64,000 nt of DNA. It comes from Terriglobia bacterium (GTDB lineage Bacteria > Acidobacteriota > Terriglobia > Bryobacterales > Bryobacteraceae). This document shows positions 18,847 to 40,206 of this stretch, piece by piece. A program made the position numbers and the translations under genes. Position 1 is the first letter of the stretch; each line of letters begins with the position of its first letter. Location: NCBI GenBank assembly GCA_020073145.1, contig JAIQFS010000011.1:1-64000 (forward strand), written 5' to 3'. The notes beneath the pieces were generated by a model, which searched no databases, was not told the origin of the DNA, and saw nothing but the letters and a program-made list of their open reading frames with translations.

Positions 18847-19575
18847 TCAGCGCCGGGTCGGAACGGCGTTCGCCCCAGTCACGGTCCGCAGAGCCTGTTC
18901 CAGTCCCTGGGACGAGAAACCGTAGGGGCCGGGTAGAGTCTTGAAGATGACCCGGCCATCGGTGCCGATCAGGTACAGGCGATCGGGCCAGCCTGTGTAG
19001 GCCTGTTCAATCCGGTTGTCCATGCCGTCCAGCAAGGCGGGAATGCGAATGCCCAGGTTCCGGACACAGGCGGAAGCGGTTTCGGTCCGCTCACCAGATG
19101 TATGAGCCGACGCGAACAGCACGCCATCGCGCACATTGGCAGCCATTTCCCACAAGTCCGTGGGATGCGCTTCCTGAATATAGACAACGTAAAACGCCAC
19201 ACGATCCCGATACTGGTCGAACAAACGGTTGAGCGCGGGAACCTCCCGGCGAAATGGCGGTCACGTGTAGCTGCCAAACACCAGGACCACGGGGCGCTCG
19301 CGCCACTCGGCGGAGAGGCGGACCACGCCACTCTTGTCCAAGCGGGGCAGCGAGAAGTCGGGCGCGGCGTCTCCGGCGCGCAGGCTGCCCCGCCGCGCCG
19401 ACATCCAGAGCGGCTCAAACGGCAGCACGATCATGGCGACGCTGGGAACCTTCGCCATGATGGCGCCAAACCTCTCCGGAGTTTGGTGCATCGCCGCGTA
19501 AAGGGCCGCCGTGCAGACTCCATACGCTAAGAGTAAGGCCCCAAGAATCCCGGCAAGCAGCTTCCGCCGTCTCAT
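18847..19575 (-). CDS. Deiodinase-like thioredoxin-fold selenoprotein (UGA = Sec105)
   Basis: Read through the in-frame TGA at 19261-19263, the gene encodes 242 residues. Residues 6-30 form a membrane anchor (LLAGILGALLLAYGVCTAAL); the redoxin-like domain starts at GDAAPDFSLPRL. The active site reads VLVFGSYT-U-PPFRREVP, the place and context of selenocysteine in iodothyronine deiodinases (SCT-U-PPF). YIQEAHPTDLW and GWPDRLYLI also match deiodinase blocks (EEAH.xDxW and PERLY). Both halves are in the same frame with no indel, conserved sequence continues directly across the TGA, and a GG-loop hairpin follows it, so a decoding event fits better than a broken gene. The reaction is unknown; bacterial members probably act on peroxides or disulfides rather than thyroid hormones. 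It starts 14 bp after the AhpD-like gene. Confidence 0.88.
19236..19263 (-). promoter_or_regulatory. Putative bacterial SECIS after UGA codon of deiodinase-like gene
   Basis: The TGA occupies 19261-19263. On the minus strand, CGGGA-GGT-TCCCG forms a perfect 5 bp stem with a GGT loop; the loop G residues are the 18th and 19th bases after the TGA. Bacterial SECIS elements are short hairpins just 3' of the UGA with a G in the apical loop about 16-37 bases away, which SelB recognises. The match is in placement and loop; function is inferred. Confidence 0.75.
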
Positions 19576-19589
19576 CTCAGGCTATCCTA

Positions 19590-20186
19590 TTACTTTCGAA
19601 CATAGCCGTGCAAAGCGGTGCGCTTGCCGCCTTCCTGATGAGCTTCGGGCGACAACGCGTGAACGCCCGTCGCGTCGATCCAGCGGTTATAAAAATTAAA
19701 GAGGGCGCAGACGGAAATCGCGAAATAGATGGCCTCATCATCCCAGCCGACAGCATACAAGGGTTGCATGTCGGACGGGCTGATCCGTGGGGAATCGCCG
19801 TTCACTTTATCGATGAATCGAAACAGCGCCTTTTCCTTTTCCGCCAAAGGCGAAGTTTCCAGGTCGCGGAGCACGCTCCACACCAACTCTTTGCTGCCAA
19901 GCAGTTCCACCGCGACCGCGGCGTGTGCGTGCAGTCAAAACGGGCAATCGTTGCGGTACGAGGTGTACGCCGCGATTAGCTCCCGCAGGCCCGGCTCGAT
20001 CGGCGCCGGGCCGCGCATAATCTCTTGAGTGAAGCGGGCGAGGTGGTCCGTGGCCTCGGGGCGGAAGGCAAACAGATGCCAGATCTGCGGGTATTCCTTG
20101 CCGGCTCCTCGCATCGCTTGGATGTTGTCGGTGTAGGGACCCGGACGTGGGTTGTTTTCGACACCAGGCAGAAACATCGGTTTCAC
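19590..20186 (-). CDS. AhpD-like / carboxymuconolactone-decarboxylase-family selenoprotein (UGA = Sec84)
   Basis: Read through the in-frame TGA at 19935-19937, the gene gives 198 residues from the GTG at 20186, which has an ideal GGGAGG Shine-Dalgarno 7 bp upstream. The usual AhpD active site C-x2-C-x3-H appears as YRNDCPF-U-LHAHAAVA, with Cys81 and Sec84. After the TGA come ELLGSKELVWSVLRD and the second-half block AIYFAISVCALFNFYNRW, as in peroxidase-related AhpD-like proteins. AhpD-type enzymes reduce peroxides or act as disulfide reductases. A GGUC-loop hairpin follows the TGA. It is upstream of the deiodinase-like gene (14 bp gap), so both would be made from one message and both need SelA/B/C/D, which are not in this window. 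Confidence 0.88.
19908..19937 (-). promoter_or_regulatory. Putative bacterial SECIS after UGA codon of AhpD-like gene
   Basis: The TGA is at 19935-19937. CGCCGC-GGTC-GCGGTG on the minus strand makes a 6 bp stem (one G-U pair) with a GGUC loop whose first two bases are the 18th and 19th after the TGA, exactly the same spacing and GG as in the deiodinase-like gene. This is the expected form of a bacterial SECIS. Confidence 0.75.
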
Positions 20187-25866: not shown

Positions 25867-27507
25867 TCAGAGTTGACGGACCACCAAATGTTGTCCGGCC
25901 GACACGTCCGTCAGCACCTGGCGAGCGCCCGCAGGCCAATCGATTTCCACCCGGGTCGCTTTTTCGTCCCGGCCCAGCCCGAAGGTGAGGGAGAGGTCAC
26001 TGGCGGAACAATAGCTGGAACCGCTGTGCACCGTCTGCCACTGCGTCCCTCCCGCAGTGGTCACTCGCACGACGGCTCCGATGCCATCACGGTTTGAGCG
26101 CGTGCCTTCGAGCTTGACGTTCAGCCAATGATTGATGTTCGCGCCATCGTTGCGATACAGATACGCAGGGCCGTGGTTGGTGGCGATGAGCACATCCAGG
26201 TCGCCGTCACGATCATAATCACCATAAGCCATTCCGCGCGCCACCATCGGCGTAGGGAACGCGTCCACTTCCTCGAACATTCCTCCGCCGCGATTTCTCA
26301 ACAGGAGCGGCGTCTGCCGATAGCGGACCTTCGGCTGTACCCGCTCGATCGCTTCATCGAGATGGCCGTTAGCCGTCAGGATATCCGGATAGCCGTCCAG
26401 ATCGTAGTCGAAGAAGAATAGCCCGAACGTCAGCTTCAACAAGCTGGCGCGCCCCACGGTGGACCGGGGCGCCTCGTCCACGAATAGCCCGTTGCCTTCG
26501 TTGTGGTACAGGCTCAGCATTTGATTGGAAAAATTGCCAACAATCAGGTGCGGCCTGCCCGAGCGGTCATAGTCGGCGGCATCCACACCCATTGCCGCGC
26601 GCGCGACACCGTCCTCGCCAAAGGCGACACCCGAAGCCAAACCTACTTCCTGAAACCGGCCGTTTTTCAGGTTGTGGTACAGCTTATTGGGCTGGGTATC
26701 GTTGGACACAAAGAGATCGGTCCAGCCATCGCCATCATAGTCAAACGGCGTCACGCCCAGCGCCTTCCCGTTGGGGTCACCCAAACCGGCCTGCTCGGTC
26801 ACGTCGGCGAACTTGCCTCCCCCCAGATTCCGGTACAGCTTCGACGACGTGCCCTTGTAAGACTCCGGCGTACAGTAAGACTTGGTCGCGCCGTCCAGAG
26901 AACACCACAGATCGGCCTGGGGAGTCCACTGCACATAGTTGGCGACGAAGAGATCGAGCTTACCGTCCAAATCGTAATCCAGCCAGGCGGCGCTGGTGCC
27001 AAAGCTGGCGTTGTGAAAGCCGGCCTCGGCAGTAACATCGCGGAAGTGTCCCCCGCCTTCGTTGTGGAACAGTCGGTCGCCCCCGAGCGTGGTGATGTAC
27101 ACATCGTCGCGGCCGTCGTTGTCGTAATCGCCGATGGTTACTCCCAGGCTGTAGGCTTCGAAATCCAGCCCGCTGCCCTTGGTGATGTCCTCAAACGTTC
27201 CGTCGTGGCGGTTGCGATAGAGAGCCGCGGTGGTGTGGCGGCCGTGATCGGTCCAATCCTTGCCGTTCACGATCAGAATATCCAGCCAGCCATCGCCATC
27301 CGCGTCGAAGAAGGCGCAGCCCGGCCCCAGCGCCTCGGGCAGCCACTTCTTCCCGTCACTTCCGGAATTGTGCTGAAAGTGAAGGTTGGCCTGATTGGTG
27401 ACGTTGGTGAACCGAACCGGCGCCTCTGTGGGACGCGGGGGCGCCGCCCGGCATCCCATTAGACAGACCAGGCTCAGGAGCATGATCGTGGATCGGCTGT
27501 CTCTCAT
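25867..27507 (-). CDS. ASPIC/UnbV FG-GAP repeat lipoprotein (CRTAC1-like)
   Basis: 546 residues. MLLSLVCLMGC is a lipoprotein signal with the acylated Cys near residue 19. Then come repeated FG-GAP/VCBS calcium-binding blades (FFDADGDGWLDILIVNG, IGDYDNDGRDDVYITTLGG, WLDYDLDGKLDLFVANY, FDYDGDGWTDLFVSND), a seven-bladed integrin-like propeller. The C-terminus (HWLNVKLEGTRSNRDGIGAV to RVEIDWPAG) is the ASPIC/UnbV domain. The protein is expected outside the inner membrane; function is unknown. Its first 150 bp overlap the 3' end of the cytochrome gene in another frame. Confidence 0.92.
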   Translation of the reverse strand: MRDSRSTIMLLSLVCLMGCRAAPPRPTEAPVRFTNVTNQANLHFQHNSGSDGKKWLPEALGPGCAFFDADGDGWLDILIVNGKDWTDHGRHTTAALYRNRHDGTFEDITKGSGLDFEAYSLGVTIGDYDNDGRDDVYITTLGGDRLFHNEGGGHFRDVTAEAGFHNASFGTSAAWLDYDLDGKLDLFVANYVQWTPQADLWCSLDGATKSYCTPESYKGTSSKLYRNLGGGKFADVTEQAGLGDPNGKALGVTPFDYDGDGWTDLFVSNDTQPNKLYHNLKNGRFQEVGLASGVAFGEDGVARAAMGVDAADYDRSGRPHLIVGNFSNQMLSLYHNEGNGLFVDEAPRSTVGRASLLKLTFGLFFFDYDLDGYPDILTANGHLDEAIERVQPKVRYRQTPLLLRNRGGGMFEEVDAFPTPMVARGMAYGDYDRDGDLDVLIATNHGPAYLYRNDGANINHWLNVKLEGTRSNRDGIGAVVRVTTAGGTQWQTVHSGSSYCSASDLSLTFGLGRDEKATRVEIDWPAGARQVLTDVSAGQHLVVRQL

Positions 27508-30091
27508 TGTTATCCTCGGGACTCAGCTGTCTGGGCTGGGCCGTCAATTGCTGGGAGGCCTCATCGGCCTTGAAACGCCGGAACAATGCCTCTTCGCGCG
27601 TGGCCTCGTTGGTCCTTCCCAGCCCGCGGTAGCAGAGCATCAAATCGTAGTGTGCCTGCACATCCTCGGGGTCCACGGCCAACACCTGGTCCAGAGCCGC
27701 GACGGCTTCCTGGTAGCGGCGGTCGAGAAACAGGATGCGGCCGATCTGGTTCAGGACGACGCGGTCTCTTGGATACTGCTCCCGAACCTGCGCCAGGCTT
27801 TGCAGCGCGCCTTCGTAGTTGCCGTCGGCCTTCTGGATCAGAGCCTGGAAATACTGGGCGCGCGCCAGGTTGGGACTCAGTTTCAAAGCCTGCGCGACGA
27901 ACGGACGCGCCGCGCCGGTTTCACCCTCTTGGATCAAGACCCGAGCGACGTTCACCCACCCGTCGGCATAGGAAGGTTCGATCTCGGTAACCTGGCGGAA
28001 CGCGTATTCGGCTCCCTTCAGATCGCCTTGCAGCAGCAATCCAATCCCCCAGTCATTCCAGCGCTCGCGGTCCAGCTTGCGGGCAACCGGCTGCCACAGC
28101 GGCTGTCCCACGCCAACGGTCGCTTTGGCGGCAGCCAAGGTGACGATCGGCAGCTCCGGAACCGGCTTGGAGTCAAAGGTGTACTGGCGGCTGTCGAAAT
28201 CGAGACCCGCACGGCCAGACTGAGCCACTCCCGCGTAGGCGAACTTGGTGAAGTAGTCGCTGAACTTCCGGTAGTTCAAGCGCGCTTCCAGGGTCACCGG
28301 CCCTTCCGCATCCTTGGGAATCGGCAAAAGGAAATGCACGGTGTCCGCGGCGCCCGGAGGGATCAGCCGCACGTACAACACGCTGCGGGCCTGCCAGGCA
28401 TTACGCTTGTTGATCGGGTTGCCTTTTCCGTCCAGTTGGTAGGAACGGTAGAAGTGCGCGCCCTTTTCCACCGGCCCCCGTCCGTTGTCCTCCACGCGTC
28501 CACTCCAGGTGAGCACCCTGCCCTTGGCGTCCAGTGCCTTGAATTCCAGCCACACGTCGAAGGCGTCCACGGTGCCGGCCGGGAAAAAGTGCCCGATTTT
28601 TCGCGTTCGCACGACCGCATCGACTCGGACGGTGGCGCCCGGCGCGAACCGAACACCGGGCGCATCGAGCGGCGCAGCCACTCTGCCGACCTCGCGGAGG
28701 ACCGCGGGCGCATTGGCTTCCGCTTCTTCACCTACTGCGAATGTGGATGATAAAGCCAGGGAGTCCGCGGCGCGCCGCAGCATTTCGGTTTTCCCTTTCG
28801 TTTGCGTCACCTCCGTGGCCGCGAACAAATCCACGGTAATAAATCCCGATTGGAGAAAGTCCTCTGTGGCCTTCAGCTGTGTCGCATCATGGTTCACGGA
28901 TGCGACTGCGGTGTTCGCCGCTGCGAAGCGATGCGAATGGATCATGCCTCCGTGATTGCCTGGATCGTGGGATGCTACCAGCGGCATATGGCAGGTGCCG
29001 CAGGCCGCCGCGTCGGGAGGATAGTAGAAGGACCGCGCGCCCTGTCCCGATACACCGCTTGCTTGCCAGTTGTCGTATTCGTCGAATCCACGGAACCAGC
29101 GGTAATGGTTCACGGGCTCGTCGAGGTGAACCTTGTGGCAGGCCGAGCAGTATTCGGCCGAGTCCTGGCGCATGAAAGCTTTCATGAATGTGCGCCGGTG
29201 GGGCTCCGGATTCAGGTAGGTTACGAATTGATCCAGCTTCTTGATCCATGGATTCTTGCTCGAAGCCAGCCGGTGCAGTGGAGGATATTGGATGGTAAAG
29301 TCGCCATTGCCCATGGAGCCATCCACATGGGCGATCGAGTGGCAAGAAACGCAGCCTAGCCCGTTTTGCGCCTCCGGCGTATCCACCTGCTCTTTGATGG
29401 GGCGATCGAACCGGCCGTTGAAGAATACGGCGTGGTCGTGACATCCGGCGCACCATTTACTGCCTTTTGTTCCGCTCAACTCCTGCATGTGCTCGATCGA
29501 GCGCCGATAGAACTGGTTGTTGAACGAAGCGAAGTGATGCATGGAACTCTTCCATTGCTGGTAGATGTCCTTGTGACACTCCCCGCACAACGCCGAGTCC
29601 ATAAAGAAATCGGAGGGAATCAGGCCGCCCGTATTGGTCCTTGCGGAAGAAGGCCAGAAGGGCGACTTCGGGCCGGCGCCTTCTCCGGCCATGGAAACAG
29701 GAACCGTTTGAGAATTGCGGATGCGCTCCGGGGCGCGGCCGAACCGCAGCGCTGCTGCCGCGATAGCAAGCGTCGCCAGTGCGGCGCGCCAGCGGGCGGA
29801 TGGCAGCAGCAGGGCCAACCCGGTTACTGCTAGTACGATGTGTCCCCACAATGCCAGGCGATGATCGGTGGTGGCGCCCTCGACCAGGAGGAATCCGCCT
29901 AGAAGCGCGGCCGCAACTAATAGCGCCGTTTTCGGGCTGCGTCGCCACTGCCAGCACAGCACCAGAACCCCGGCGAGCCCCAGCCCTACGTGCAGCAGGA
30001 CGTTGCCCACGTAAAAGATGGTGGCCGAGGGCAATGCGGCCACGTACGCGGCGTTCAGCAGCAACAGCGCGATGAGCCAGTTCTTCTTCAT
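27356..30091 (-). CDS. Membrane-anchored five-heme cytochrome c with TPR repeats
   Basis: 911 residues. Hydrophobic segments around 5-25, 30-48, 56-72, 80-98 and 102-117 anchor the N-terminus. CxxCH heme motifs start at residues 169 (CGECH), 214 (CAGCH), 247 (CVSCH), 315 (CSACH) and 364 (CGTCH), with many His residues between them that could be distal ligands, as in cytochrome c554-type folds. A beta-rich region follows (about 440-640), then TPR repeats to about 850. It probably moves electrons in the periplasm; partner unknown. The last 50 codons overlap the next gene out of frame. Its ATG overlaps the upstream stop by 4 bp. Confidence 0.92.
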   Translation of the reverse strand: MKKNWLIALLLLNAAYVAALPSATIFYVGNVLLHVGLGLAGVLVLCWQWRRSPKTALLVAAALLGGFLLVEGATTDHRLALWGHIVLAVTGLALLLPSARWRAALATLAIAAAALRFGRAPERIRNSQTVPVSMAGEGAGPKSPFWPSSARTNTGGLIPSDFFMDSALCGECHKDIYQQWKSSMHHFASFNNQFYRRSIEHMQELSGTKGSKWCAGCHDHAVFFNGRFDRPIKEQVDTPEAQNGLGCVSCHSIAHVDGSMGNGDFTIQYPPLHRLASSKNPWIKKLDQFVTYLNPEPHRRTFMKAFMRQDSAEYCSACHKVHLDEPVNHYRWFRGFDEYDNWQASGVSGQGARSFYYPPDAAACGTCHMPLVASHDPGNHGGMIHSHRFAAANTAVASVNHDATQLKATEDFLQSGFITVDLFAATEVTQTKGKTEMLRRAADSLALSSTFAVGEEAEANAPAVLREVGRVAAPLDAPGVRFAPGATVRVDAVVRTRKIGHFFPAGTVDAFDVWLEFKALDAKGRVLTWSGRVEDNGRGPVEKGAHFYRSYQLDGKGNPINKRNAWQARSVLYVRLIPPGAADTVHFLLPIPKDAEGPVTLEARLNYRKFSDYFTKFAYAGVAQSGRAGLDFDSRQYTFDSKPVPELPIVTLAAAKATVGVGQPLWQPVARKLDRERWNDWGIGLLLQGDLKGAEYAFRQVTEIEPSYADGWVNVARVLIQEGETGAARPFVAQALKLSPNLARAQYFQALIQKADGNYEGALQSLAQVREQYPRDRVVLNQIGRILFLDRRYQEAVAALDQVLAVDPEDVQAHYDLMLCYRGLGRTNEATREEALFRRFKADEASQQLTAQPRQLSPEDNNERQPIHDHAPEPGLSNGMPGGAPASHRGAGSVHQRHQSGQPSLSAQFRK

Positions 30092-33039
30092 CGCGGCTCC
30101 AATGGCTCGGTTAACACCTGTGCCGGTCGCGTGTTGTAGGTGCGTTGATACTCGTCATGAACCGCATCTCGCGGGTAGCGTTCGCCAGCCGGATAAGGAT
30201 ACCGCGACATCCCATGGAACGGCAATGGGAGCACACTCTGGGAGAAAGCTGTGTTGGGGTCGCGATCCTTGGCCCAGCCGTCCACCTTCAGGAGAAAGTC
30301 CCGGCTCCATCCCTGCGGCAAAGGAGGCAGCCGACCCCCATCGAACTCGATCCTCAGCTCATCGCCTGAGCCCATGATCACCAGACGGTCGTCGGCATCC
30401 CGCAATAACTCTTCCACCGAGCCCAGTCTTGTGTACAGACCCGGCGTGGGATTCCAGAAAGAGGTCGCGGAAACACGGCCATAGTCGAACCGGTCCGGCT
30501 GCAGGCGCCGGGGGTCCACGCGTGTCTCCGAGAATCCGCGAAACTGCAGGTCTGCGGACATCACAGGCACCAGCTCCGGTGTCGCTCCCGCGTTCGACTC
30601 TCCTTCGCTCAAAAAGACGCGGTCCCAATAGACGCACAGATTCGTGACGATCCGGACCCTGCGACTCGCCGCGGGAAACCGCACCGGAACTACAATCGTC
30701 TTGGGCTTACCTGCCGGCATGCCCATGTCCGGGTCCGCGGTGATCCAACGGCCGTGGCCGTCTTGCACCTGCAGGTAGGGCATCACCAAACCCACCTTGG
30801 TCTCCTGGGACGCGCGGCGGAAGGTGCTGCCGTCCGGCCAATCGACCCATCCGCTCAGCACCAGGATCGCGGCGCCGGATGGCGCGGCCGTCCCGAAGTC
30901 CAGCTCCAGCGTGTGCAGGTCCGCCACACCGGTTTCCGAGCGCCGGAACTGGTTGGGATACCGCTGGTCGATCGCCAGCAGTAGCGGCCGCACATCCCGG
31001 CCTTGATCGTCGCGAGCCGACTGGGGATCGATCTGCCGCTCGACGCTGAACAACCGGAATGGGGGATAGGGCGGTCCTTTGAATTTGTCGTTGGTGAAAA
31101 TCTCGGTGTGGACGGGGTGATCGACAGCGAGCAACTGGATTTGATCGAGATACGAGACCTCGCTCAACTCCTCGGTAATGTGGACGTTGTAATGGCCGCG
31201 CACCGGCCGTAGCGACTCGCCTGGAATCCGCACATACTCAACATGGTTCACGGGGAAATAGCTGCCATCGCCATCGCTGGCGCCCAGCGGAGCGACGCCC
31301 AGCACGTCGGTGATGAACTCGAATCGGCGCCCGTTCCATGTCCACACCATGGGGCAAGAACCGGACAGGCGCTGGGCTTCGACGTAAGTGTGGGTCTGAT
31401 TCGTCGGCTGCCGGACCTCGTTCTGGATCAGCCCGTTGGGCCAGGTGATGCGAACCGTATCCACCGAGGCATGATCGCCGGCATCGAACAGCAGCGGCAC
31501 GCCAGTGTAGAATTCGCGGCGATACAGGCTGCCGGCTTTGATCTCCACAAAAGCGTCCTGCGCCAGCTGCAGACTCCGCACGCCGGTCAGGCGGACGCCA
31601 ATCCAGTGCCGGTCCAGAGGACTCTCGTTATGCATGAGGTGCACGGTACCGCTCGCATCGATTCGGGCACGATCCAGGCGGCCGTCGCCATCAAAATCAG
31701 CATTTACTTCGGTACGAACCGGCGGGTTCCCCTGGAATGCCTCCACGCTGTATCGGCCGCCGAGCCGATCGCGATACAGAACCGGTGCGTGGTCGCGGTA
31801 GTACACGGCGAGATCGAAAGCCTTGCTGTCCGGAAGAAGGCGGGTCTTCTGGGCGCCAGAGACCGCGCCCTGGATGAATGGGAAGTCGCCGGTGCGATTG
31901 GTCCATCCCGCGGCGCCCTGGTTTCGCAAGAGTGCTGGCCGGTCTCCCAGTAATACCAGGTCCAGGTCGTAATCATGATCGTAATCGAGCCACACCGCCC
32001 TCTCGAAACGGCCAGTGGGCAGTTTCGCAGGGACTCGCACAAATGTGCCCTTCCGGTTGCGGTACAACGCGGGACCGGCTGTCGTCAACACGCACAGATC
32101 CATGAAGCCGTCGTTGTCAAAATCGCCGGGGGCCACGTCAAGGATGCCCGTCAATCCTTCCAGTCCGGTGACGGCGATAAGTTGCTGGCCGCGCAAATAC
32201 AGCCGGATTCCCGTCGAGGACCACACCAACAGATCGGTTGCGCCGGTCCCTGCGGCGTCGATCAGGGTGAGTCCCGCGGTGGCCGCGTCTACGTTGTCTT
32301 TGAACTGCGTTTCGGCAAAGGTGGGTTCCGGCAAGGCGGGAGCGGCAATGCGGGCCTCCGGAGGGTCGTAAATTTCGGCGTACACACACCATTCCACGTC
32401 TTCCGCCGTCACCCAGCTTTTCTGAATCGTTTGGATGCGTTGAAAACCGGCCAGGTAAGCGTCGGCCTGCGCCGCACTGCCGGTCACACGATATAGGTTG
32501 TAGAGCTGGAAGGGCGCAGCCGCAAGTAGTGGATCCAGCTCGGCGGCTTTCGCGAACTGCGCCTCCGCATCCGCGTTCCGGTTCAGTTGTCGATACAGGG
32601 CTCCAAGCTGATAATGCCCGATGGCCTCGTCAGGCACTCGCGCGATCATGCCTTCGAATTGCGCGACCGCCCGGTTCACGTCGCCCCGGTGCTTATAGTA
32701 GATCCCGAGGTTGAACCAGGTATGCGGCAAGGAGGGATCCTGGCGCTGCACCTCGATCAGGAGCCGCACGGCTTCTTCGTCGGGTCCCGAAGCCCGCAGC
32801 AAAGCGAGGGCGAAGTTCAGCTTCTCGCGGGCCGAGTCCGGCGCCAGATCGAGCGCCTGCCGGAACTCGTTCACCGCTTGCTGTTGGGTGGCGGGATTCT
32901 CATAGAGCGCCTTGCCGAGATTGCGGTGCTGCGTTAGAAGTTCGGTGGTATCCCGGCGCGAGCACGATCCCAGAGTGAGAAGGGCAAGCCCCGCCGCGAG
33001 CGCCCAGCGAGACCGGCCTGAGAGCCGACGAGGCCTCAT
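30088..33039 (-). CDS. Large TPR / FG-GAP / ASPIC-UnbV lipoprotein
   Basis: 983 residues from the ATG at 33039, which overlaps the upstream stop (ATGA); the frame is open 82 codons further but inside the neighbour. LALLTLGSC gives a lipoprotein signal. TPR repeats fill about residues 30-230 (FNLGIYYKHRGDVNRAVAQF, YQLGALYRQLNRNADAEAQF). An FG-GAP propeller follows (GDFDNDGFMDLCVL, YDHDYDLDLVLLGD, NADFDGDGRLDRARID), then an ASPIC/UnbV-like domain (HWIGVRLTGVRS ... RITWPNG). The last 400 residues, beginning WTWNGRRFEFITDVLG, form a unit I do not recognise. Function unknown; likely a surface or periplasmic protein-interaction scaffold. Confidence 0.9.
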   Translation of the reverse strand: MRPRRLSGRSRWALAAGLALLTLGSCSRRDTTELLTQHRNLGKALYENPATQQQAVNEFRQALDLAPDSAREKLNFALALLRASGPDEEAVRLLIEVQRQDPSLPHTWFNLGIYYKHRGDVNRAVAQFEGMIARVPDEAIGHYQLGALYRQLNRNADAEAQFAKAAELDPLLAAAPFQLYNLYRVTGSAAQADAYLAGFQRIQTIQKSWVTAEDVEWCVYAEIYDPPEARIAAPALPEPTFAETQFKDNVDAATAGLTLIDAAGTGATDLLVWSSTGIRLYLRGQQLIAVTGLEGLTGILDVAPGDFDNDGFMDLCVLTTAGPALYRNRKGTFVRVPAKLPTGRFERAVWLDYDHDYDLDLVLLGDRPALLRNQGAAGWTNRTGDFPFIQGAVSGAQKTRLLPDSKAFDLAVYYRDHAPVLYRDRLGGRYSVEAFQGNPPVRTEVNADFDGDGRLDRARIDASGTVHLMHNESPLDRHWIGVRLTGVRSLQLAQDAFVEIKAGSLYRREFYTGVPLLFDAGDHASVDTVRITWPNGLIQNEVRQPTNQTHTYVEAQRLSGSCPMVWTWNGRRFEFITDVLGVAPLGASDGDGSYFPVNHVEYVRIPGESLRPVRGHYNVHITEELSEVSYLDQIQLLAVDHPVHTEIFTNDKFKGPPYPPFRLFSVERQIDPQSARDDQGRDVRPLLLAIDQRYPNQFRRSETGVADLHTLELDFGTAAPSGAAILVLSGWVDWPDGSTFRRASQETKVGLVMPYLQVQDGHGRWITADPDMGMPAGKPKTIVVPVRFPAASRRVRIVTNLCVYWDRVFLSEGESNAGATPELVPVMSADLQFRGFSETRVDPRRLQPDRFDYGRVSATSFWNPTPGLYTRLGSVEELLRDADDRLVIMGSGDELRIEFDGGRLPPLPQGWSRDFLLKVDGWAKDRDPNTAFSQSVLPLPFHGMSRYPYPAGERYPRDAVHDEYQRTYNTRPAQVLTEPLEPR

Positions 33040-34457
33040 GGGCGTGGTGTCACTTGTGCCAGTTCCTGGTCGATCTGCGCCAGCAGCGCTGGAGGGCCTT
33101 CCTGGCGCACCCGGTTTCTCGCCTGTTCCAGATACTGACGCGCCTTGGCGGCGTCGCCCGTGGTGTGATAGGCCTCGGCTATCAAGACCAGGCGGAGTGC
33201 GGAGTACATGTCCTCGATCGGAAGAGCCTCGAGCAATGCGGGTATCACTTCGCGGCCCTGGCCGTGAATGATGAGCAACCGCCACAGGTTCATCTGAACC
33301 GCGCGATCGGGGCCTTGGGCCAGCGCTAGTCGATACTGCGCGATTGCCTCATCCGGCCGGCTCTGCCTTTCTAGTATCTCGCCAAGCTGGGCGTGAGCCT
33401 CCGGATAATCCGACCGCAGCTCCACGGCCCGTCGCAGCGCGGCTGTGGCTGCATCGTACTTTCCCTGGCGCGCCATGGCTGCGCCATAGTAGTCGTAAAT
33501 AAGTGGGACTTGCGGGTTGATTCGTTTCGCTTTCGAATAGAGGTCGTCCAATTGACCGTCGAACCGGTCCAGGAAACGCGCCAGGTATAGGAGGTTCAGC
33601 AGCACCGTAAAATTTTCAGGGTCTTTCTTGAGAAGGGCTTCGTTTAGTTGCGCCGCCTCCTCGATCCGTCCCTTCCGGGCAAACTGGTCGCCCTGCGCGA
33701 GGCGGTAATAGACGCCAGTTGCCATCGCGCTAACCTGGTCGGCGATGGAATCGCTAGCTGGCGGATGATCGGCGGCGTATCGTTGAGCCAAGTCGAAGTC
33801 TCGAGTCGCTTGCGCGTCTTTCCCTAGCCGCCGTTCGGTCGTGGCTAACCCGTAGTAGGCGGCGCCGAAGGTCTGGTATGCCCGGCAAGCCCGGCTGTAA
33901 AAATCCTCGGCCCCGGACAGATCCCCTTCGGCGAACTTGACTCGAGCCATGCCGTAAAGCGCCATGGCGGATCCCGGATCTTCCGAAAGGAGCGACTTGT
34001 AGAGGTCGCCGCTTTCCTTCAAGCGGCCCAATTGAAATAGCAGATCGCCTTTTCTGAGTGCCGCTGGCGCATAGTCGGGACGGATGCGCAGCGCGGCCGA
34101 CAGTGCGGCCAAGGCCCTCTCGGATTCGGACAGCTGTTGATACACGACCGCGAGATAATAGCGCCACGCGAATTCCTTCGGCTCCAGGCGGATGGCTCGC
34201 TCGTAGGCGAGTAGGGCCGGTTGATAGACCGCATGCGCCTGCAGCACCATTCCCAGGCGTCCGGAAGCTTGCGCGCTCGATGGGTCGGCGGCGGCTTGTT
34301 GGTGAGCCGTCACGATGGCATCGCGCACCTCGGGATCGAATCCGGCCACCTGCGGAGTGGGCACCGGCGGCACCGGACCCGCGCAGGAACAAAGAACAAC
34401 CGCGGTGAGAATCGGGACCGTCAGTGCGAGACTACGCAACACCCCGTTTGCGGGCAT
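33036..34457 (-). CDS. TPR-repeat lipoprotein
   Basis: 473 residues from the ATG at 34457. LTVPILTAVVLCSC is a lipoprotein signal; the rest is a long TPR solenoid (AHQQAAADPSSAQASGRLGM, YERAIRLEPKEFAWRYYLAV, PLIYDYYGAAMARQGKYDAA and more). It has no catalytic motif. It is the first gene of the minus-strand envelope operon and is divergent, across 50 bp, from another ASPIC/UnbV lipoprotein gene. TPR proteins scaffold complexes, so it may hold the cytochrome and FG-GAP proteins together; that is inference. Confidence 0.9.
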   Translation of the reverse strand: MPANGVLRSLALTVPILTAVVLCSCAGPVPPVPTPQVAGFDPEVRDAIVTAHQQAAADPSSAQASGRLGMVLQAHAVYQPALLAYERAIRLEPKEFAWRYYLAVVYQQLSESERALAALSAALRIRPDYAPAALRKGDLLFQLGRLKESGDLYKSLLSEDPGSAMALYGMARVKFAEGDLSGAEDFYSRACRAYQTFGAAYYGLATTERRLGKDAQATRDFDLAQRYAADHPPASDSIADQVSAMATGVYYRLAQGDQFARKGRIEEAAQLNEALLKKDPENFTVLLNLLYLARFLDRFDGQLDDLYSKAKRINPQVPLIYDYYGAAMARQGKYDAATAALRRAVELRSDYPEAHAQLGEILERQSRPDEAIAQYRLALAQGPDRAVQMNLWRLLIIHGQGREVIPALLEALPIEDMYSALRLVLIAEAYHTTGDAAKARQYLEQARNRVRQEGPPALLAQIDQELAQVTPRP

Positions 34458-34472
34458 GTTCACCCAGGATTG

Positions 34473-34501
34473 TTGACAGTCTATCACGCTTATGCAATTC
34501 T
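34473..34501 (+). promoter_or_regulatory. Weak sigma-70-like promoter in divergent spacer
   Basis: A perfect TTGACA at 34473-34478 is followed after 17 bp by AATTCT, a poor -10 match (3 of 6). It would start transcription at about the GTG at 34508, giving a nearly leaderless message. The only other divergent signal is weaker. Treat as tentative. Confidence 0.3.
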
Positions 34502-34507
34502 GATCGG

Positions 34508-36241
34508 GTGAAATTGAGGGCGGTATTGCTTGCCCTGACTGCCCTCTCGCTCGGGTGTCAGTCTGCGCGCCATAGCGCTCCTCCATTTGAAGACGTCGCC
34601 AAACAGACCGGCCTCGACTTTTGGCAGTCTTCCGGCGCGAGTGGAGAATTTCTTTTGCCCGAAATCACGGGATCGGGCGGCGCCTTACTGGATTACGACA
34701 ACGATGGGGATCTGGATGTCTATTTAGTCCAAGGCGCACCGCTCAATCCCCGGAGTCCAGGCAAGCTGGTCGTCCCGTTGCCGCCCGGCTGGAAGCCGGG
34801 TAATCGGCTCTTTCGAAATAATCTCGCCCGCACCGGCAAACTTTCGTTCACGGATGTCACCGCAGAGGCTGGTGTCGGTTCCAGCGGCGCGGGCATGGGC
34901 GTTGCCGCCGGAGATTACGACAACGACGGCTACGTCGACCTGTACGTGACCAACTTCGGCCACAACGTTCTCTATCACAACAACGGGAACGGCACCTTTA
35001 CGGACGTGACCGGCGCGGCCGGGGTGGAATCGTCCGGATGGTCCACCAGCGCGGCATTCATCGACTATGACCGCGACGGCTATCTCGATCTGGCGGTGGT
35101 GCATTACGTCGAGTTCGACAACCGCGCTTGCTATCTTCCCTCGGGCCGGCGGGAATATTGCGGGCCGCAGGTGTTCGGTAGAACCGTCACGCAACTCTAC
35201 CGGAACTTAGGCAACGGACGATTTGAAGATGTCACCGTGGCTGTCGGGCTGAACTCGAAACGTGGTCCTGGCCTCGGTATCCTGACCGGGGATTTCGCCT
35301 CCAATGGGTGGCCTAGTTTCATGGTTGCCAACGATGGCGCCGCCAATCACCTGTGGCTGAATGAACCGCGGAGTCCAGGCGGCAGTCCGAATGACCGGGT
35401 GTTTCGTGAAGCGGGATTGGTGCGCGGACTGGCCTATGCCTCGGACGGCCGTGCTCGCGCGGGCATGGGGCTGGCGGCCGGGGACCTTTATGGGGATGGC
35501 GGGGAGAGCATTGTCGTTACCAATCTCCCCAATGAAGGGTTTACGCTGTTCCAGCGCCAGGCGGCTGGAGATTTCATGGATTCCACGGTCCAGGGCGGAA
35601 TGCTCCAGCCGTCGCTGCCGCATACGGGTTTTGGCGTTGGCTTATTGGACATCGAGAATCGCGGCCTGCTGGATATGTTCAGTGCCAATGGAGCCGTCCT
35701 GTCGGTTCCCACAGCGCGCCCGGATGATCCTTATCCCTATGGGGAGCGCAATCTGCTGCTCCGCAATCTTGGGAAAGGCAAGGGTTTTGCGGACGTCACT
35801 GCCTCTGCGGGGCCGGCGCTTGCATTTGTCGACGTGGGCCGGGCTGCGGCCTTCGGCGACGTGAACAACGACGGTGGAGTCGATATCCTGGTGACCAACA
35901 ATAATGGCCCCGCGCGCCTGCTATTGAACACCACCCCGGATCGCGGGCACTGGATCCAGCTTCGGCTGGAAGGAGTCCGGTCCAACCGTTCGGCCTACGG
36001 AAGCGTGGTCGATCTGATCCGCAAGGATGGGACGTCGGTCAGGCGTTGGGTTCGCGGAGACGGAAGCTACCTTGCGGCTAACGATCCTCGAATCCACTTC
36101 GGGCTAGGCCAATCGACCGAAGTGGAACGGATTCAGGTCCGATGGCCGGCCGGGGGGTGCGATTCGTGGAAGCAGATCGCGGCGGACCGGATCCTGACCC
36201 TGCGCGAAGAAAGCGGCCAATCCTGTCAGTCAGCTCATTAA
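34508..36241 (+). CDS. ASPIC/UnbV FG-GAP repeat lipoprotein (CRTAC1-like), second copy
   Basis: 577 residues from the GTG at 34508, chosen because LLALTALSLGC then forms a lipoprotein signal; no clear Shine-Dalgarno. FG-GAP blades include LLDYDNDGDLDVYLVQG, GDYDNDGYVDLYVTNFG and IDYDRDGYLDLAVVHYV, and later FGDVNNDGGVDILVTNNNG. The ASPIC/UnbV domain is at HWIQLRLEGVRSNRSAYGSV to RIQVRWPAGG. It is a divergent paralogue of the protein at 25.9-27.5 kb and probably works in the same envelope system. The downstream receptor gene has its own promoter. Confidence 0.9.
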   Translation: MKLRAVLLALTALSLGCQSARHSAPPFEDVAKQTGLDFWQSSGASGEFLLPEITGSGGALLDYDNDGDLDVYLVQGAPLNPRSPGKLVVPLPPGWKPGNRLFRNNLARTGKLSFTDVTAEAGVGSSGAGMGVAAGDYDNDGYVDLYVTNFGHNVLYHNNGNGTFTDVTGAAGVESSGWSTSAAFIDYDRDGYLDLAVVHYVEFDNRACYLPSGRREYCGPQVFGRTVTQLYRNLGNGRFEDVTVAVGLNSKRGPGLGILTGDFASNGWPSFMVANDGAANHLWLNEPRSPGGSPNDRVFREAGLVRGLAYASDGRARAGMGLAAGDLYGDGGESIVVTNLPNEGFTLFQRQAAGDFMDSTVQGGMLQPSLPHTGFGVGLLDIENRGLLDMFSANGAVLSVPTARPDDPYPYGERNLLLRNLGKGKGFADVTASAGPALAFVDVGRAAAFGDVNNDGGVDILVTNNNGPARLLLNTTPDRGHWIQLRLEGVRSNRSAYGSVVDLIRKDGTSVRRWVRGDGSYLAANDPRIHFGLGQSTEVERIQVRWPAGGCDSWKQIAADRILTLREESGQSCQSAH

Positions 36242-36328
36242 ACCGGACCGCTGGGGGCGCGCGGGGTCGGAACCTGGTTAATTAATGGCATCTCACGTTC
36301 CAACTTCAGTCAAATCCGGAAAAATGCG

Positions 36329-36357
36329 TTGACCCTGGGGTTATCTTTCGATATACT
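36329..36357 (+). promoter_or_regulatory. Sigma-70-type promoter for the TonB-receptor-like gene
   Basis: TTGACC, a 17 bp spacer, then TATACT: five of six matches in each hexamer with ideal spacing. It lies about 73 bp before the ATG at 36430, in a 188 bp non-coding gap. This is the best promoter match seen in the window. Confidence 0.75.
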
Positions 36358-36429
36358 CCAGCAGACTGGAGCTCGTCTCACCCGGCACCTTGGCTGAAGG
36401 TGGGCAGGCTTCTTTGGAGGGGTCCAAAT

Positions 36430-39400
36430 ATGCGTTCGTTGTTCGTCGCCGGTGGTCTACTTTTTTGCGCTCTGCTTGGATTTGCCCAAGTGAACGGTAC
36501 GATTACAGGTACGATTTCCGACCCGGCGGGTGCTGTGGTCCCGGGCGCTGCCATTCAAGTCAAGAATACCGATACCGGCGCAGTGTTCGCCGGCGGTACG
36601 TCGGCAACCGGCAACTACGTAGTCTCGTTGCCGCCCGGTAAGTACGAGCTGGATGTGACCGTGCCCGGATTCAAGAAGTTCATTCGCCAGAACCTGCAGA
36701 TAACCTCTTCAGTTGACACACGATTGGACGTCACCCTAGATGTCGGCGCGGCTACCGAGTCGGTGACCGTCGAGGCGGCAGCCCCTCTGCTGAAGACGGA
36801 GAGCGGCGAGGTCAGCCACAGTGTGACCGGCAACGACGCGGACGAACTTCCGGTGCTCTCAATCACTGGCGCCACTGCCATCTTGGCCGGTAATGGATTT
36901 GGGAACATCCGCGATCCGCTGGCGGTTTCGTTGCTGGTCCCTGGCGTCAACTACGCCGTGGACGGCGGCATCACCGTGAATGGATTGCCCGCCTCATCCG
37001 AAGCGATCCGCATCGAGGGTCAGGACGCCACCAACGGCACCTGGAACCAAAAGACGCAGATCAACCAGAGCGGTATGGACGCCATCCAGGAAGTCTCGAT
37101 CCAGACCAGCAATTTTGCCGCGGAGTATGGACAGGCCGGCGGCGGCTATTTTAACTACACCATGAAGTCGGGAACTAACCAGCTCCATGGAAGCGCCTAT
37201 CTCTACTCGGCCAACGACGCCTTGAACGCAGGCTTGCCCTTTACCGACGCGGGTATTACCAATAGCCAGCGGGCAGGACAGCACGTCCGGAACGCGGACC
37301 GCAAGTTCGATTTCGGCGGTACGATCGGCGGACCCGTCGTCATCCCCAAGGTGTACGACGGCAAGGATAAGAGTTTCTTCTTCTTTAACTTTGAGCGGTA
37401 TCAAGAAAACCAAAGTTTCACCCCGCAAGAAACGGTTCCTACCGCTGCCGAGCGCGGGGGAGATTTTTCCGGTATCCTGAACCCCTTTGGCCTCCCGTTC
37501 CCCCTGGCCCTGAGTTCTGCAGGTTTCTTTGGCCCCCCGTCTAACGATGCACTCGGCCGGCCGATGTTCTATAACGAGATCTATGACCCCAACACCACCC
37601 GAACCCTAACGAGTGGCGCGATTGTTCGCGATCCCTTTCCGAACTTTCATATTGATCCAACCCGCTTCAATCCGGTTGCCTCAGCCATACAGAATCTGAT
37701 TCCACAGGCCAATGCGCCCGGCCTCAAGAATAACTTCAATCTGGGTTCGTATAGTGACTACCAGCACACCACCAACTGGTCCATTAAAGCGGACCATTCG
37801 TTCAGTCCCACCATCAAAATATCGGGGTATTTTTCGCATATCCTGACCTTCAACCCCAATCTCAATGGCATCCCCGGACCGGTTGAACAGCCATCGGCAA
37901 CCAACAACTCTTCGAGCACTGTCCGGATCAACTACGATCAAACTCTGAGGCCGACGTTGCTGCTGCACTTGGGGGTTGGTTACATCCACACCTATATCCC
38001 CTCCGGGGCTGCCAACTATAACGAAAACAGCCTGGGGTTAACAGGATATCCCGTTTCGAATTATTTCCCCAATGTCACCGGCTTGAGCGATTTCTTTACC
38101 GGCGGCGTGAGTTTGGCGGCCGGTCCCTTTGGCGGCGGCACCATCGGTCCGGCCGGGTTCCTGCAGGATGTCTGGGATGAAAAACCCACCGCGAATGCCA
38201 ATTTGACTTGGGTCAAGGGCAACCACACCTATAAATTCGGCGGCGAGATGATGATCGAAGGGTTCCCGGATAAAGGTGTGAACCGCGCCAATGGTAATTT
38301 TGGCATTTCCCCCACGGAAACCGGGAATCCCGACGAGCAACGGGTGGGGTTGAGTGGGAGCACCGGGACCACCGGGTTCGGCTATGCCAGTTTCCTGTTG
38401 GGCCAGGTGGACAACCTGAATATCAACCCGGCCACCCAATCCAAGTTGGGCTATCACTCCTTTGCATTCTATGCCCAGGACAGCTGGAAGGTCACCCGAA
38501 AGCTGACCCTGGATTATGGCCTGCGCTACGACTTTGAGTCCTACTTGAAGGAACAGTACGGCCGCATGCCGAATACCGTGTTCAACGTGATGAATCCGGT
38601 AACGAATACACCCGGGGCGACGCTCTTTGAGGGATATGGCGGCGGGCGTTGCAACTGCGCCTTCTCCCATAGTTATCCGTTCGCGTTCGGTCCGCGCCTG
38701 GGGGTCGCCTATCAGGTGACGCCCAAGACGGTACTTCGAGGCGGTGTGGCGCTTCAGTACGCCCAAGCATCGAACAATGCGTTCCTGTCCTACAATGACA
38801 CCGTGTTCTACGCCGTCAGCGGGCCCTCCTACGGCCAACCGTTCATGACTCTGGGTCCCAATCCTTACGCGCCGGGCAATCCTTTCGGCAACCCTGCGCT
38901 CGTCTATCCGAACTTCAACGCTGGCGTTTTCCCCGTCCCGACGGGTGGTTTGTTACCTCCGGATTCTCCGTTCATCAACATCGACCGGAGTTCCCGGCCG
39001 CCCCGAATTTTCAACTGGAGCTTTGGCCTCCAGCGTGAGATCACACCCAACCTCGTCGCGGAAGCCACCTATGTGGGCAATCGCGGAGTCTGGTGGACGG
39101 CGCCCGAGCTCGATGCCACCGACTACAATGCCCTTCAACCTTCAGACTTGGCCCGGTGGGGACTCAATATCCACAACCCGGCGGACCAGCAGCTCCTGCT
39201 AACGCCGATCAATTCGCCGGCGGTGGTTGCACGCTTCCCGCAATTGGCAAATCCCAACAATGTGTACAAGGGATTTCCTGGGAGTCAACCCTTGAACCAG
39301 GTGATCCGCCTGGCTCCCCAGTTTCTCGGCGTGCCCCCGTTCCTGGGTCCGCCACTGGGCGACACCTGGTACGATTCACTCCAAGTGAAGGTCACCAAGA

Positions 39401-40206
39401 GGTTTTCGCACGGGTTGAGCATCCAGGGTTCCTATACCTATAGCAAAAACGAGGTTCTGGGAGTCAGCGCCTCTACGCAGTACTTCACGCCGGGCACTCC
39501 GCTTGTCAACGACGTCTACAACCGCGGCATCAACAAACAGTTGGCTCAAAACACGACGCCCAGCCTGTTGATCGTTTCGGGGATGTACGTGACGCCGCGG
39601 TGGGGCCAAAACAGGCTCGTCAAGAACGTGGTGGGCGGCTGGCAGATCGCCGCTGTGCTGCGTTATCAGAATGGCGCGCTCATTCAAACTCCCCCGTCGG
39701 TTAACAACCTCCTGACGGAACTGGATCGCGGGCCTTCCAATAACCCGGCTCTGTGGGGGGGCGGAAATACCTTCTGGAACCCGGTTCAGGGTCAGTCTTG
39801 TCTGTCGGTGGATCCCAATCAGAAGGGCTTCGATCCGAGTTCGACTCTCGCGCTCAATCCCAAGGCTTGGGTGGATCCGGGCCCAGGGAACTTCGGTGCT
39901 GCCGCGCCGTTCTATAACAACTGCCGTTGGCAGCGGCAACCGCAAGAGAGCATGAGCTTCGGCCGGAACTTCCGCATCAAGGAGAGAGGGAACCTGCAAT
40001 TCCGCATCGAGTTCCAAAACGTCTTCAATCGCTTGTTCTATTCCATGCCGTCGGTAGGTAGTTTTGGGGCAACCAATCCCACCACGCCGGCAACGAACAC
40101 GAACCCCAACAACGGGTTGTCCGGAGGCTACGGCTTCGTACCCTACATTAACGGAGTGGGCGATACGCCGCGCACCGCTCAAGCGGTGATCCGATTCACG
40201 TTTTGA
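36430..40206 (+). CDS. TonB-dependent receptor-like outer-membrane protein (Oar/carboxypeptidase-regulatory type)
   Basis: 1258 residues from the ATG at 36430, with GGAGG 10 bp upstream. A signal peptide ends at LLGFAQ. Residues about 22-105 are a carboxypeptidase-regulatory-like beta-sandwich (GTITGTISDPAGAVVPGAAI, YELDVTVPGFKKF). A plug-like region follows (about 130-260, with IRIEGQDATNGTWNQ), then a barrel of many aromatic beta strands ending in AQAVIRFTF, with the terminal Phe typical of outer-membrane proteins. No TonB box is obvious. Such receptors are strongly expanded in Solibacter-like genomes and are thought to import large substrates. Its neighbours suggest a link with the ASPIC/UnbV system. 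Confidence 0.92.
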   Translation: MRSLFVAGGLLFCALLGFAQVNGTITGTISDPAGAVVPGAAIQVKNTDTGAVFAGGTSATGNYVVSLPPGKYELDVTVPGFKKFIRQNLQITSSVDTRLDVTLDVGAATESVTVEAAAPLLKTESGEVSHSVTGNDADELPVLSITGATAILAGNGFGNIRDPLAVSLLVPGVNYAVDGGITVNGLPASSEAIRIEGQDATNGTWNQKTQINQSGMDAIQEVSIQTSNFAAEYGQAGGGYFNYTMKSGTNQLHGSAYLYSANDALNAGLPFTDAGITNSQRAGQHVRNADRKFDFGGTIGGPVVIPKVYDGKDKSFFFFNFERYQENQSFTPQETVPTAAERGGDFSGILNPFGLPFPLALSSAGFFGPPSNDALGRPMFYNEIYDPNTTRTLTSGAIVRDPFPNFHIDPTRFNPVASAIQNLIPQANAPGLKNNFNLGSYSDYQHTTNWSIKADHSFSPTIKISGYFSHILTFNPNLNGIPGPVEQPSATNNSSSTVRINYDQTLRPTLLLHLGVGYIHTYIPSGAANYNENSLGLTGYPVSNYFPNVTGLSDFFTGGVSLAAGPFGGGTIGPAGFLQDVWDEKPTANANLTWVKGNHTYKFGGEMMIEGFPDKGVNRANGNFGISPTETGNPDEQRVGLSGSTGTTGFGYASFLLGQVDNLNINPATQSKLGYHSFAFYAQDSWKVTRKLTLDYGLRYDFESYLKEQYGRMPNTVFNVMNPVTNTPGATLFEGYGGGRCNCAFSHSYPFAFGPRLGVAYQVTPKTVLRGGVALQYAQASNNAFLSYNDTVFYAVSGPSYGQPFMTLGPNPYAPGNPFGNPALVYPNFNAGVFPVPTGGLLPPDSPFINIDRSSRPPRIFNWSFGLQREITPNLVAEATYVGNRGVWWTAPELDATDYNALQPSDLARWGLNIHNPADQQLLLTPINSPAVVARFPQLANPNNVYKGFPGSQPLNQVIRLAPQFLGVPPFLGPPLGDTWYDSLQVKVTKRFSHGLSIQGSYTYSKNEVLGVSASTQYFTPGTPLVNDVYNRGINKQLAQNTTPSLLIVSGMYVTPRWGQNRLVKNVVGGWQIAAVLRYQNGALIQTPPSVNNLLTELDRGPSNNPALWGGGNTFWNPVQGQSCLSVDPNQKGFDPSSTLALNPKAWVDPGPGNFGAAAPFYNNCRWQRQPQESMSFGRNFRIKERGNLQFRIEFQNVFNRLFYSMPSVGSFGATNPTTPATNTNPNNGLSGGYGFVPYINGVGDTPRTAQAVIRFTF

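Follow-up and report, generated by a model that had tools for sequence, protein, structure and literature searches.

Adjacent genes for a deiodinase-like and an AhpD-like selenoprotein in Acidobacteriota probably belong to one redox pathway

A deiodinase-like (Dio-like) and an AhpD-like protein, both apparently containing selenocysteine (Sec), are encoded by adjacent genes in the 64,000-nucleotide stretch of a Terriglobia genome analysed here (the window), and the pairing recurs in related bacteria, suggesting that the two genes probably serve one redox job. In our main reading (probability roughly 0.6), they form a bicistronic selenoprotein operon whose products carry out successive or coupled steps of a single redox pathway; this pathway is best read as a Sec-dependent process of two enzymes that acts on an imported organic compound or peroxide.

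The frames of the two genes, each open only if one in-frame UGA is read through, confirm what had been read from the sequence alone, namely two UGA-containing genes on the minus strand that are 14 bp apart (Table 1). The AhpD-like gene starts with a GTG located behind GGGAGG and ends with TAA, and the Dio-like gene extends from an ATG to a TGA stop. The pair, which is flanked by a protein kinase gene and an amidase gene, is probably one transcription unit; a pattern scan found no promoter or terminator, which counts against the main reading.

Table 1. Coordinates of the gene pair and its elements in the window.
Feature	Position	Strand	Details
AhpD-like (TIGR01926, peroxidase-related) selenoprotein gene	19590..20186	-	198 aa; E69-x11-C81-P-F-U84-x3-H88
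Deiodinase-like (Dio-like, PF00837) selenoprotein gene	18847..19575	-	242 aa; S102-Y103-T104-U105-P-P-F, Y132, E135-A-H137
Sec UGA codon 84, AhpD-like gene	19935..19937	-	
Sec UGA codon 105, Dio-like gene	19261..19263	-	
SECIS hairpin, AhpD-like gene	19908..19923	-	loop GGUC at 19914-19917
SECIS hairpin, Dio-like gene	19233..19250	-	5-bp core at 19236-19248 with bulged pairs outside it; GGU loop at 19241-19243
N-terminal membrane helix, Dio-like protein, residues 2-29	19489..19572	-	predicted from model helix H2-29 and hydropathy
Cys170 codon, Dio-like gene	19066..19068	-	candidate resolving cysteine

Each UGA is followed by a GC-rich hairpin with GG at the 18th and 19th bases (CGCCGC-GGUC-GCGGUG in the AhpD-like gene, CGGGA-GGU-UCCCG in the Dio-like gene), just as the sequence-only reading had described. 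Both hairpins agree with the bacterial SECIS model in the available text of PMC13188914 (loop of 3-9 nt with a G in its first two bases, stem of 4-16 bp, N1-N2 pair, MFE at most -7.5, 16-37 nt from the UGA), the Dio hairpin failing the energy rule for a strictly uninterrupted stem and passing it (-9.8 kcal/mol) only with a one-base bulge. The folding energies of the hairpin regions are unremarkable (z-scores of -0.84, +1.16, -0.31, and -1.37) and were rejected as proof of SECIS function. An uninterrupted hairpin resembling a bacterial SECIS follows 106 of the 1600 TGA triplets (6.6%) in this GC-rich window, and in only two of the 1600 cases does a GG loop begin precisely at base 18, one of them at the AhpD site; an Rfam scan of the window at the gathering cut-off gave no matches. 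Because energies alone do not reveal a SECIS element, the status of the hairpins was decided by comparison with homologues.

Among 36 distinct Sec-AhpD sequences, 98.8% of the cells in the 7-bp stem are paired, two-sided changes occur in four of the seven pairs, and covariation is 0.260 vs. 0.120 in shuffled alignments that ignore kinship (0 of 500). The pair that closes the loop (18-21) is GC in 24, AU in 11, and CG in one of these sequences, which fits the N1-G-[G/U]-N-N2 rule given in the accessible part of PMC13188914. The Dio stem is 87.1% paired, with two-sided changes in all five pairs and a covariation of 0.470 vs. 0.125 in shuffles that likewise ignore kinship (0 of 500). These values represent 34 of the 37 distinct Sec-Dio sequences; the other three (L120, L122, and L123) have a hairpin shifted downstream, with GG at bases 22-23. 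The same three loci also encode a Cys at the position of Cys168 of the animal enzymes.

The search with covariance models that had been proposed along with the initial reading recovered both sites. Separate models were built for the two genes because their stems pair in different registers; a joint model was aligned and then dropped. Built without the window's own sequence, the models had their best window matches at 19905-19937 (AhpD; E 5.6e-8) and 19231-19263 (Dio; E 9.1e-12), with the next-best match of each at 0.031, whereby the E-values are rough and part of the signal is coding similarity.

The hairpin is degraded in Cys-type homologues: 3-5 of the seven AhpD pairs form in all nine Cys-AhpD examined, compared with 6-7 in all 36 Sec-AhpD, and 1-2 of the five Dio pairs form in the three Cys-Dio compared. 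Loss of the hairpin in homologues that keep the UGA, which would have spoken against SECIS function, is absent from the 36 Sec-AhpD; eight of the 37 Sec-Dio sequences form at most two of the five pairs in the register of the window. Of these eight, three are those with the relocated hairpin, three are fully paired when shifted by one base (L124, L125, and L127), one pairs at three of five positions when shifted (L126), and one has a different hairpin (L129). The original argument that two equally spaced hairpins point to SECIS elements holds only in part: covariation backs the assignment, but the equal spacing taken by itself is no strong evidence, as three Dio homologues carry their GG at 22-23. 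On the strength of these comparisons, both hairpins behave as real SECIS elements, which would direct Sec insertion via SelB. A Dio homologue in another genome (L034, G013) has GGA (Gly) at the Sec position followed by an intact SECIS-like hairpin, which represents either a recent loss or a sequence error.

The genome that contains the window (6.3 Mb in 88 contigs) encodes tRNA-Sec (74.2 bits), SelB (351.9 bits), SelA (488.4 bits), and SelD (355.9 bits), and SelB scores above the cut-off in 86 of 101 relatives. The selD gene (L073; G000:C68:26523-27446) has an in-frame TGA near its start (VKAAGUASK) and is likely a third selenoprotein gene, encoding a Sec-type SelD.

The AhpD-like protein belongs to the CMD family of Pfam and scores 84.4 bits with TIGR01926 (curated cut-off 81.8). 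Its active site aligns with those of five AhpD-like chains in the PDB, and E69, C81, and H88 are present in all 42 aligned homologues, with residue 84 being U in 37 and Cys in five (homologues of at least 150 aa were used in the residue-conservation alignments). The resulting E-x11-CxxC/U-x3-H arrangement matches the proton-relay residues of AhpD (Glu118, Cys130, Cys133, and His137) reported in the available portion of PMC3141380. A role as hydroperoxidase is predicted, and the protein, which by eye has no signal sequence, looks cytoplasmic. Three other loci (L078, L079, and L114) have AhpD-family genes in tandem next to MFS, receptor, or Dio genes; these tandem genes share 32-56% identity with that of the window and are of the Cys type where they were read.

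The Dio-like protein scores 90.6 bits with PF00837 (T4_deiodinase; gathering cut-off 27) and also matches AhpC-TSA (4.7e-9); it misses the cut-off of the NCBIfam deiodinase family NF038285 (187.9 of 250 bits), covering only positions 141-340 of the 347 in the profile. Its sequence matches the animal deiodinase 4tr3 at 1.5e-17, and its segments GSYTUPPF and YIQEAHPTDLW can be aligned to corresponding segments of Dio3 and Dio2, yielding the common motifs GSxTUPPF and YIxEAHPxDxW. The Dio3 residues Ser167, Thr169, Sec170, Tyr197, Glu200, and His202, to which the available text of PMC12025243 assigns roles in the active site, align with S102, T104, U105, Y132, E135, and H137, which means that counterparts of the hydrogen-bond network of deiodinases (Sec, Ser, Thr, Tyr, and Glu) and of His202 are present. 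The substrate clamp Arg275 and the resolving cysteines Cys168 and Cys239 of Dio3 have no counterpart, with P215, Y103, and I178 in their places, a lack that counts against the main reading; three distant homologues carry a Cys at the position of Cys168. Dio3 His219, a member of the proton-transfer network, aligns with H158 of the window protein, one of only three among 46 sequences that have a His at this position. Deiodination of iodothyronines by the window protein would be a hypothetical activity.

The UPPF motif occurs in the window and in the homologue rows that bear the UGA, among which the UxxC of review tables was not encountered; a DNA pattern for the motif matched only 5 of 228 loci and was abandoned as unhelpful. 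Cys170 is kept in 35 of 46 aligned Dio sequences, and 10 of the remaining 11 carry a Cys at position 103, 153, 171, or 192 (the last one has a frameshift). The varying position would fit a moving resolving cysteine, presumably Cys170 in the window protein. Frames of Dio genes are broken by frameshifts in several assemblies (L029 in G047, L032/L151 in G018, and L037 in G017). In three further loci (L038, L039, and L121), Dio-like domains of Cys type (GSYTCPNFR, GSYTCPNLR, and GSYSCPNFR) follow a long, repeat-rich N-terminal part that is TPR-like by eye, in frames of 565-591 aa.

The predicted structure of the Dio-like protein (pLDDT 83.5) resembles those of ResA, Dio2, DsbE-like proteins, Dio3, and AhpE. 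Animal deiodinases carry an N-terminal membrane anchor, and an N-terminal membrane helix is likewise predicted in 85 of 92 Dio homologues, in which the hydropathy averaged across 19 residues exceeds 1.6. Positive charges are more numerous before than after the helix in 37, equal in 23, and fewer in 32 of 92 homologues (counted in sequences of at least 50% identity and free of X), a distribution that does not settle the orientation of the protein.

Dio was detected in 28, AhpD in 43, and both in 23 of the 101 relatives (Dio at E <=1e-45 and AhpD at >=47% identity, cut-offs that exclude weaker or partial Dio and less similar AhpD). AhpD is present in 23 of the 28 genomes with Dio but in only 20 of the 73 others (Fisher p 8.6e-7, uncorrected for kinship). 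Across the phylum, sampled evenly with 396 genomes, Dio occurs in 20 (E <=1e-20) and AhpD in 14 (E <=1e-35). When named genomes were scanned with the part of Dio that follows the Sec, at least 538 relatives were confirmed, the best 80 of which were kept; these carry names of Acidobacteriota lineages except for one labelled Nevskia soli, and 78 of the 80 have the UGA (one is frameshifted and one not covered). Carriers include Occallatibacter savannae AB23, Acidobacteriaceae bacterium KBS 83, and Acidobacteria bacterium AB60, which bear strain names and no MAG label.

The pair is not confined to the window, a prospect that would have weakened the initial reading; the proposed look at Sec/Cys and pair conservation in other Acidobacteriota shows both the Sec residues (U in 37 of 42 AhpD, UGA in 78 of the best 80 Dio loci) and the pair to recur. 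In G058 (L163), a Sec-AhpD of the window's subfamily adjoins a Sec-Dio. In 10 loci of the Acidobacteriaceae type (L155, L165, L166, L169, L170, L176, L198, L201, L219, and L224), a second TIGR01926 Sec-AhpD, here called subfamily A2 (CPYULDSHAYFLRVQGA; 27-31% identical to the AhpD of the window; 100.3 bits with TIGR01926 in L155), is located about 23-46 bp upstream of a Sec-Dio. The pairing therefore exists with two AhpD subfamilies; the A2 loci were found through Dio and are thus uninformative on A2 genes without Dio. All 10 A2 genes have a likely SECIS element (CUUCCUG-CG[U/G]GUU-CAGGGAG) that is too invariant for covariation; it folds alone at -8.6 kcal/mol (four tested) but outranks the other folds of a 40-base stretch only in L219. 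Another Sec-type AhpD (41% identical to A2) lies 15 bp from a Dio gene fragment in L081 (G098). Within the AhpD subfamily of the window, as many as 34 of the 37 genes of the Sec type (genes present in two loci were counted once) have no Dio in their flanks, which often comprise only 1.5 kb on each side. Pairing is a minority state, which counts against the main reading.

According to the main reading, SelB bound to the hairpin past each UGA would lead to the insertion of Sec, giving rise to an AhpD-like protein that looks cytoplasmic and has its proton relay at a CxxU site, and to a membrane-anchored Dio-like protein with a peroxiredoxin/ResA fold and a lone Sec. The Sec of the latter would attack an electrophilic substrate, either an organic peroxide or a halogenated or oxidised organic compound, and form a selenenyl-sulfide with a second Cys (here Cys170), to be regenerated by thiols, and AhpD may respond to the same stress, or act on the same compound, as a Sec-peroxidase/reductase. 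Because AhpD lacks a signal sequence and Dio has a membrane helix, the two proteins may be located on opposite sides of the membrane, a point against this reading; whether AhpD feeds electrons directly to Dio or acts in sequence with it depends on the side that harbors the Dio domain.

If both proteins face the cytoplasm, they may form a couple resembling AhpC/AhpD, with the Dio-like protein as peroxidase and AhpD (CxxU) as its dedicated electron donor, an alternative that we consider possible but less likely than the main reading. In its favor are the match of the Dio-like protein to AhpC-TSA and the similarity of its model to ResA, Dio, and AhpE, and it is in line with the occurrence of the pair with two AhpD subfamilies and with the role of AhpD as the adaptor that completes the AhpC/AhpD system (PMC3141380, as far as its text was available). 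It is weakened by the absence of AhpD from the examined flanks of most Dio loci (best 80 of at least 538). Moreover, by analogy, the membrane anchor and the ResA-like fold would suggest that the catalytic domain of the Dio-like protein lies outside the cytoplasm.

The neighborhoods in relatives are in agreement with another arrangement, in which the two selenoproteins would not be in contact: a compound enters through an outer-membrane receptor, is processed by Dio on the periplasmic side, possibly by reductive dehalogenation, is moved inward by an MFS transporter, and reaches the Sec-AhpD in the cytoplasm. One subfamily (>=45% identity) of TonB receptors (CarboxypepD_reg/outer-membrane barrel) is present at 27 places in 22 of the 101 genomes, and at 19 of these places an AhpD-family gene is no more than 5 kb away (16 for AhpD of >=47% identity); in 15 of the best 80 Dio loci (of at least 538), the receptor is equally close to Dio, with some of the matches partial. 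An MFS transporter of the monocarboxylate type (the nearest NCBIfam models are those for lactate and oxalate/formate, below the cut-off) is located directly beside AhpD in 10 of 26 AhpD neighborhoods. The gene orders TonB-AhpD-MFS-Dio (L077), TonB-AhpD-Dio (L075), HK-RR-ASPIC-TonB-AhpD-Dio (L076), and TonB-Dio-HK-RR-ASPIC (L215) support this arrangement, as do the retained Sec, Tyr, Glu, and His of the deiodinase site. We consider it possible, though less likely than the main reading. Against it, AhpD is of the Cys form in L076 and the Dio frame is broken in L077, the clamp residue Arg275 is missing, and a His at the position of His219 is restricted to 3 of 46 sequences, including that of the window. 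Furthermore, the genome of the window lacks both a receptor of this subfamily (19 receptor matches at E <=1e-50, the best with 32% identity) and an orthologue of the MFS transporter (best match 34%), absences that count also against the main reading.

Genes for histidine kinases, LuxR-type regulators, ASPIC/UnbV proteins, and DUF3179 proteins are recurring neighbors in relatives. Those of DUF3179, a family listed among the selenoproteins in reviews (in the portions available), recur near AhpD in L106, L112, L100, L108, and L078. The window itself has a cluster of ASPIC/UnbV FG-GAP, TPR, and cytochrome-like proteins at 25867-40206; the outer-membrane barrel protein in this cluster (36400-40206) is not among the receptor matches. 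The most far-reaching interpretation, which we regard as rather unlikely, places the pair at the center of a so far undescribed pathway by which Acidobacteriota would take up and reduce an organic compound with the help of selenium. Its components would be a dedicated outer-membrane receptor, a membrane-bound Dio-like selenoenzyme that reductively dehalogenates or otherwise reduces the compound, a transporter of the monocarboxylate type, and a Sec-AhpD in the cytoplasm. If true, bacteria would have their own equivalent of the deiodinase chemistry of animals.

That the genes encode two unrelated antioxidant selenoproteins, adjacent by accident, is improbable. Most copies are unlinked in the examined flanks, and the kinase and amidase genes next to the pair in the window are unrelated to it; by contrast, Dio and AhpD are no more than 5 kb apart in 6 of the 23 genomes that hold both (those of the window, G058, G068, G047, G018, and G034) vs. 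about 0.04 expected in a rough uniform model, and A2 pairing adds 10 loci. Among the linked genes, AhpD is of the Cys form in G068, G018, and G034, and the Dio frame is broken in G047 and G018. It is barely credible that the UGAs terminate translation or stem from misassembly and that the hairpins are chance products of GC-rich coding DNA, as the unremarkable folding energies and the 6.6% background might suggest, because the same UGA is present in dozens of genomes, the stems covary, the hairpin is degraded in Cys-AhpD, and the Sec machinery is complete.

The Dio-like gene is similar to that of an animal enzyme which removes iodine from thyroid hormone, and the AhpD-like gene to that of an enzyme of peroxide defence; the bacterial pair could show how the deiodinase chemistry of animals arose. 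Bacterial Dio-like selenoproteins were reported in 2005 (PMC1088965), and the available text of that paper and of a 2026 review (PMC13188914) gives no established function for them. The recurring Sec-AhpD partner, the receptor, the transporter, and carriers with strain names turn this function into a testable question.

Both AhpD-like and bacterial Dio-like families have already been listed as selenoproteins (PMC1088965, PMC13188914), and adjacent selenoprotein genes as such are also in print (PMC13188914, PMC2398784). Of the undescribed selenium-dependent thiol/peroxide pathway postulated at the outset, two genuine-looking selenoprotein genes and their recurrence as a pair stand, whereas the families are not new. 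What appears to be new is the pairing of Dio with AhpD: in the parts of the literature available, no description of it was found, and PMC13188914 and PMC9312934 mention both deiodinase and AhpD without joining them; a 2025 study of selenoprotein neighborhoods (PMC12013261) could cover it.

As far as the accessible text of the respective papers goes, the AhpD-like selenoprotein from the Sargasso Sea (TIGR01926; PMC13188914) agrees with that of the window in family score, CxxU motif, and bacterial SECIS, but the latter is paired with a Dio-like selenoprotein and its relatives are often located near a TonB receptor and an MFS transporter. The Dio-like selenoprotein from the same environment (PF00837; PMC1088965, PMC13188914) likewise has Sec at the deiodinase position and a bacterial SECIS; unlike the bacterial Dio-like proteins in the review tables (UxxC), that of the window has UPPF, i.e., the UxxF of the aligned animal Dio2 and Dio3. 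The neighboring redox selenoprotein genes described in PMC2398784 are similar in being two adjacent genes of redox families; here, however, the partner is Dio-like and the pair recurs in genomes of Acidobacteriota. With the mycobacterial AhpC/AhpD system (PMC3141380), the pair has in common an AhpD-type relay protein beside a redoxin related to AhpC/TSA; it differs in that both partners contain Sec and that the redoxin is membrane-anchored and Dio-like. The animal iodothyronine deiodinases (4tr3, 9h48) share the GSxTUPPF and YIxEAHPxDxW motifs with the window protein, which differs from them in the lack of counterparts of Arg275, Cys168, and Cys239; at the position of His219, it is one of only 3 in 46 sequences with a His.
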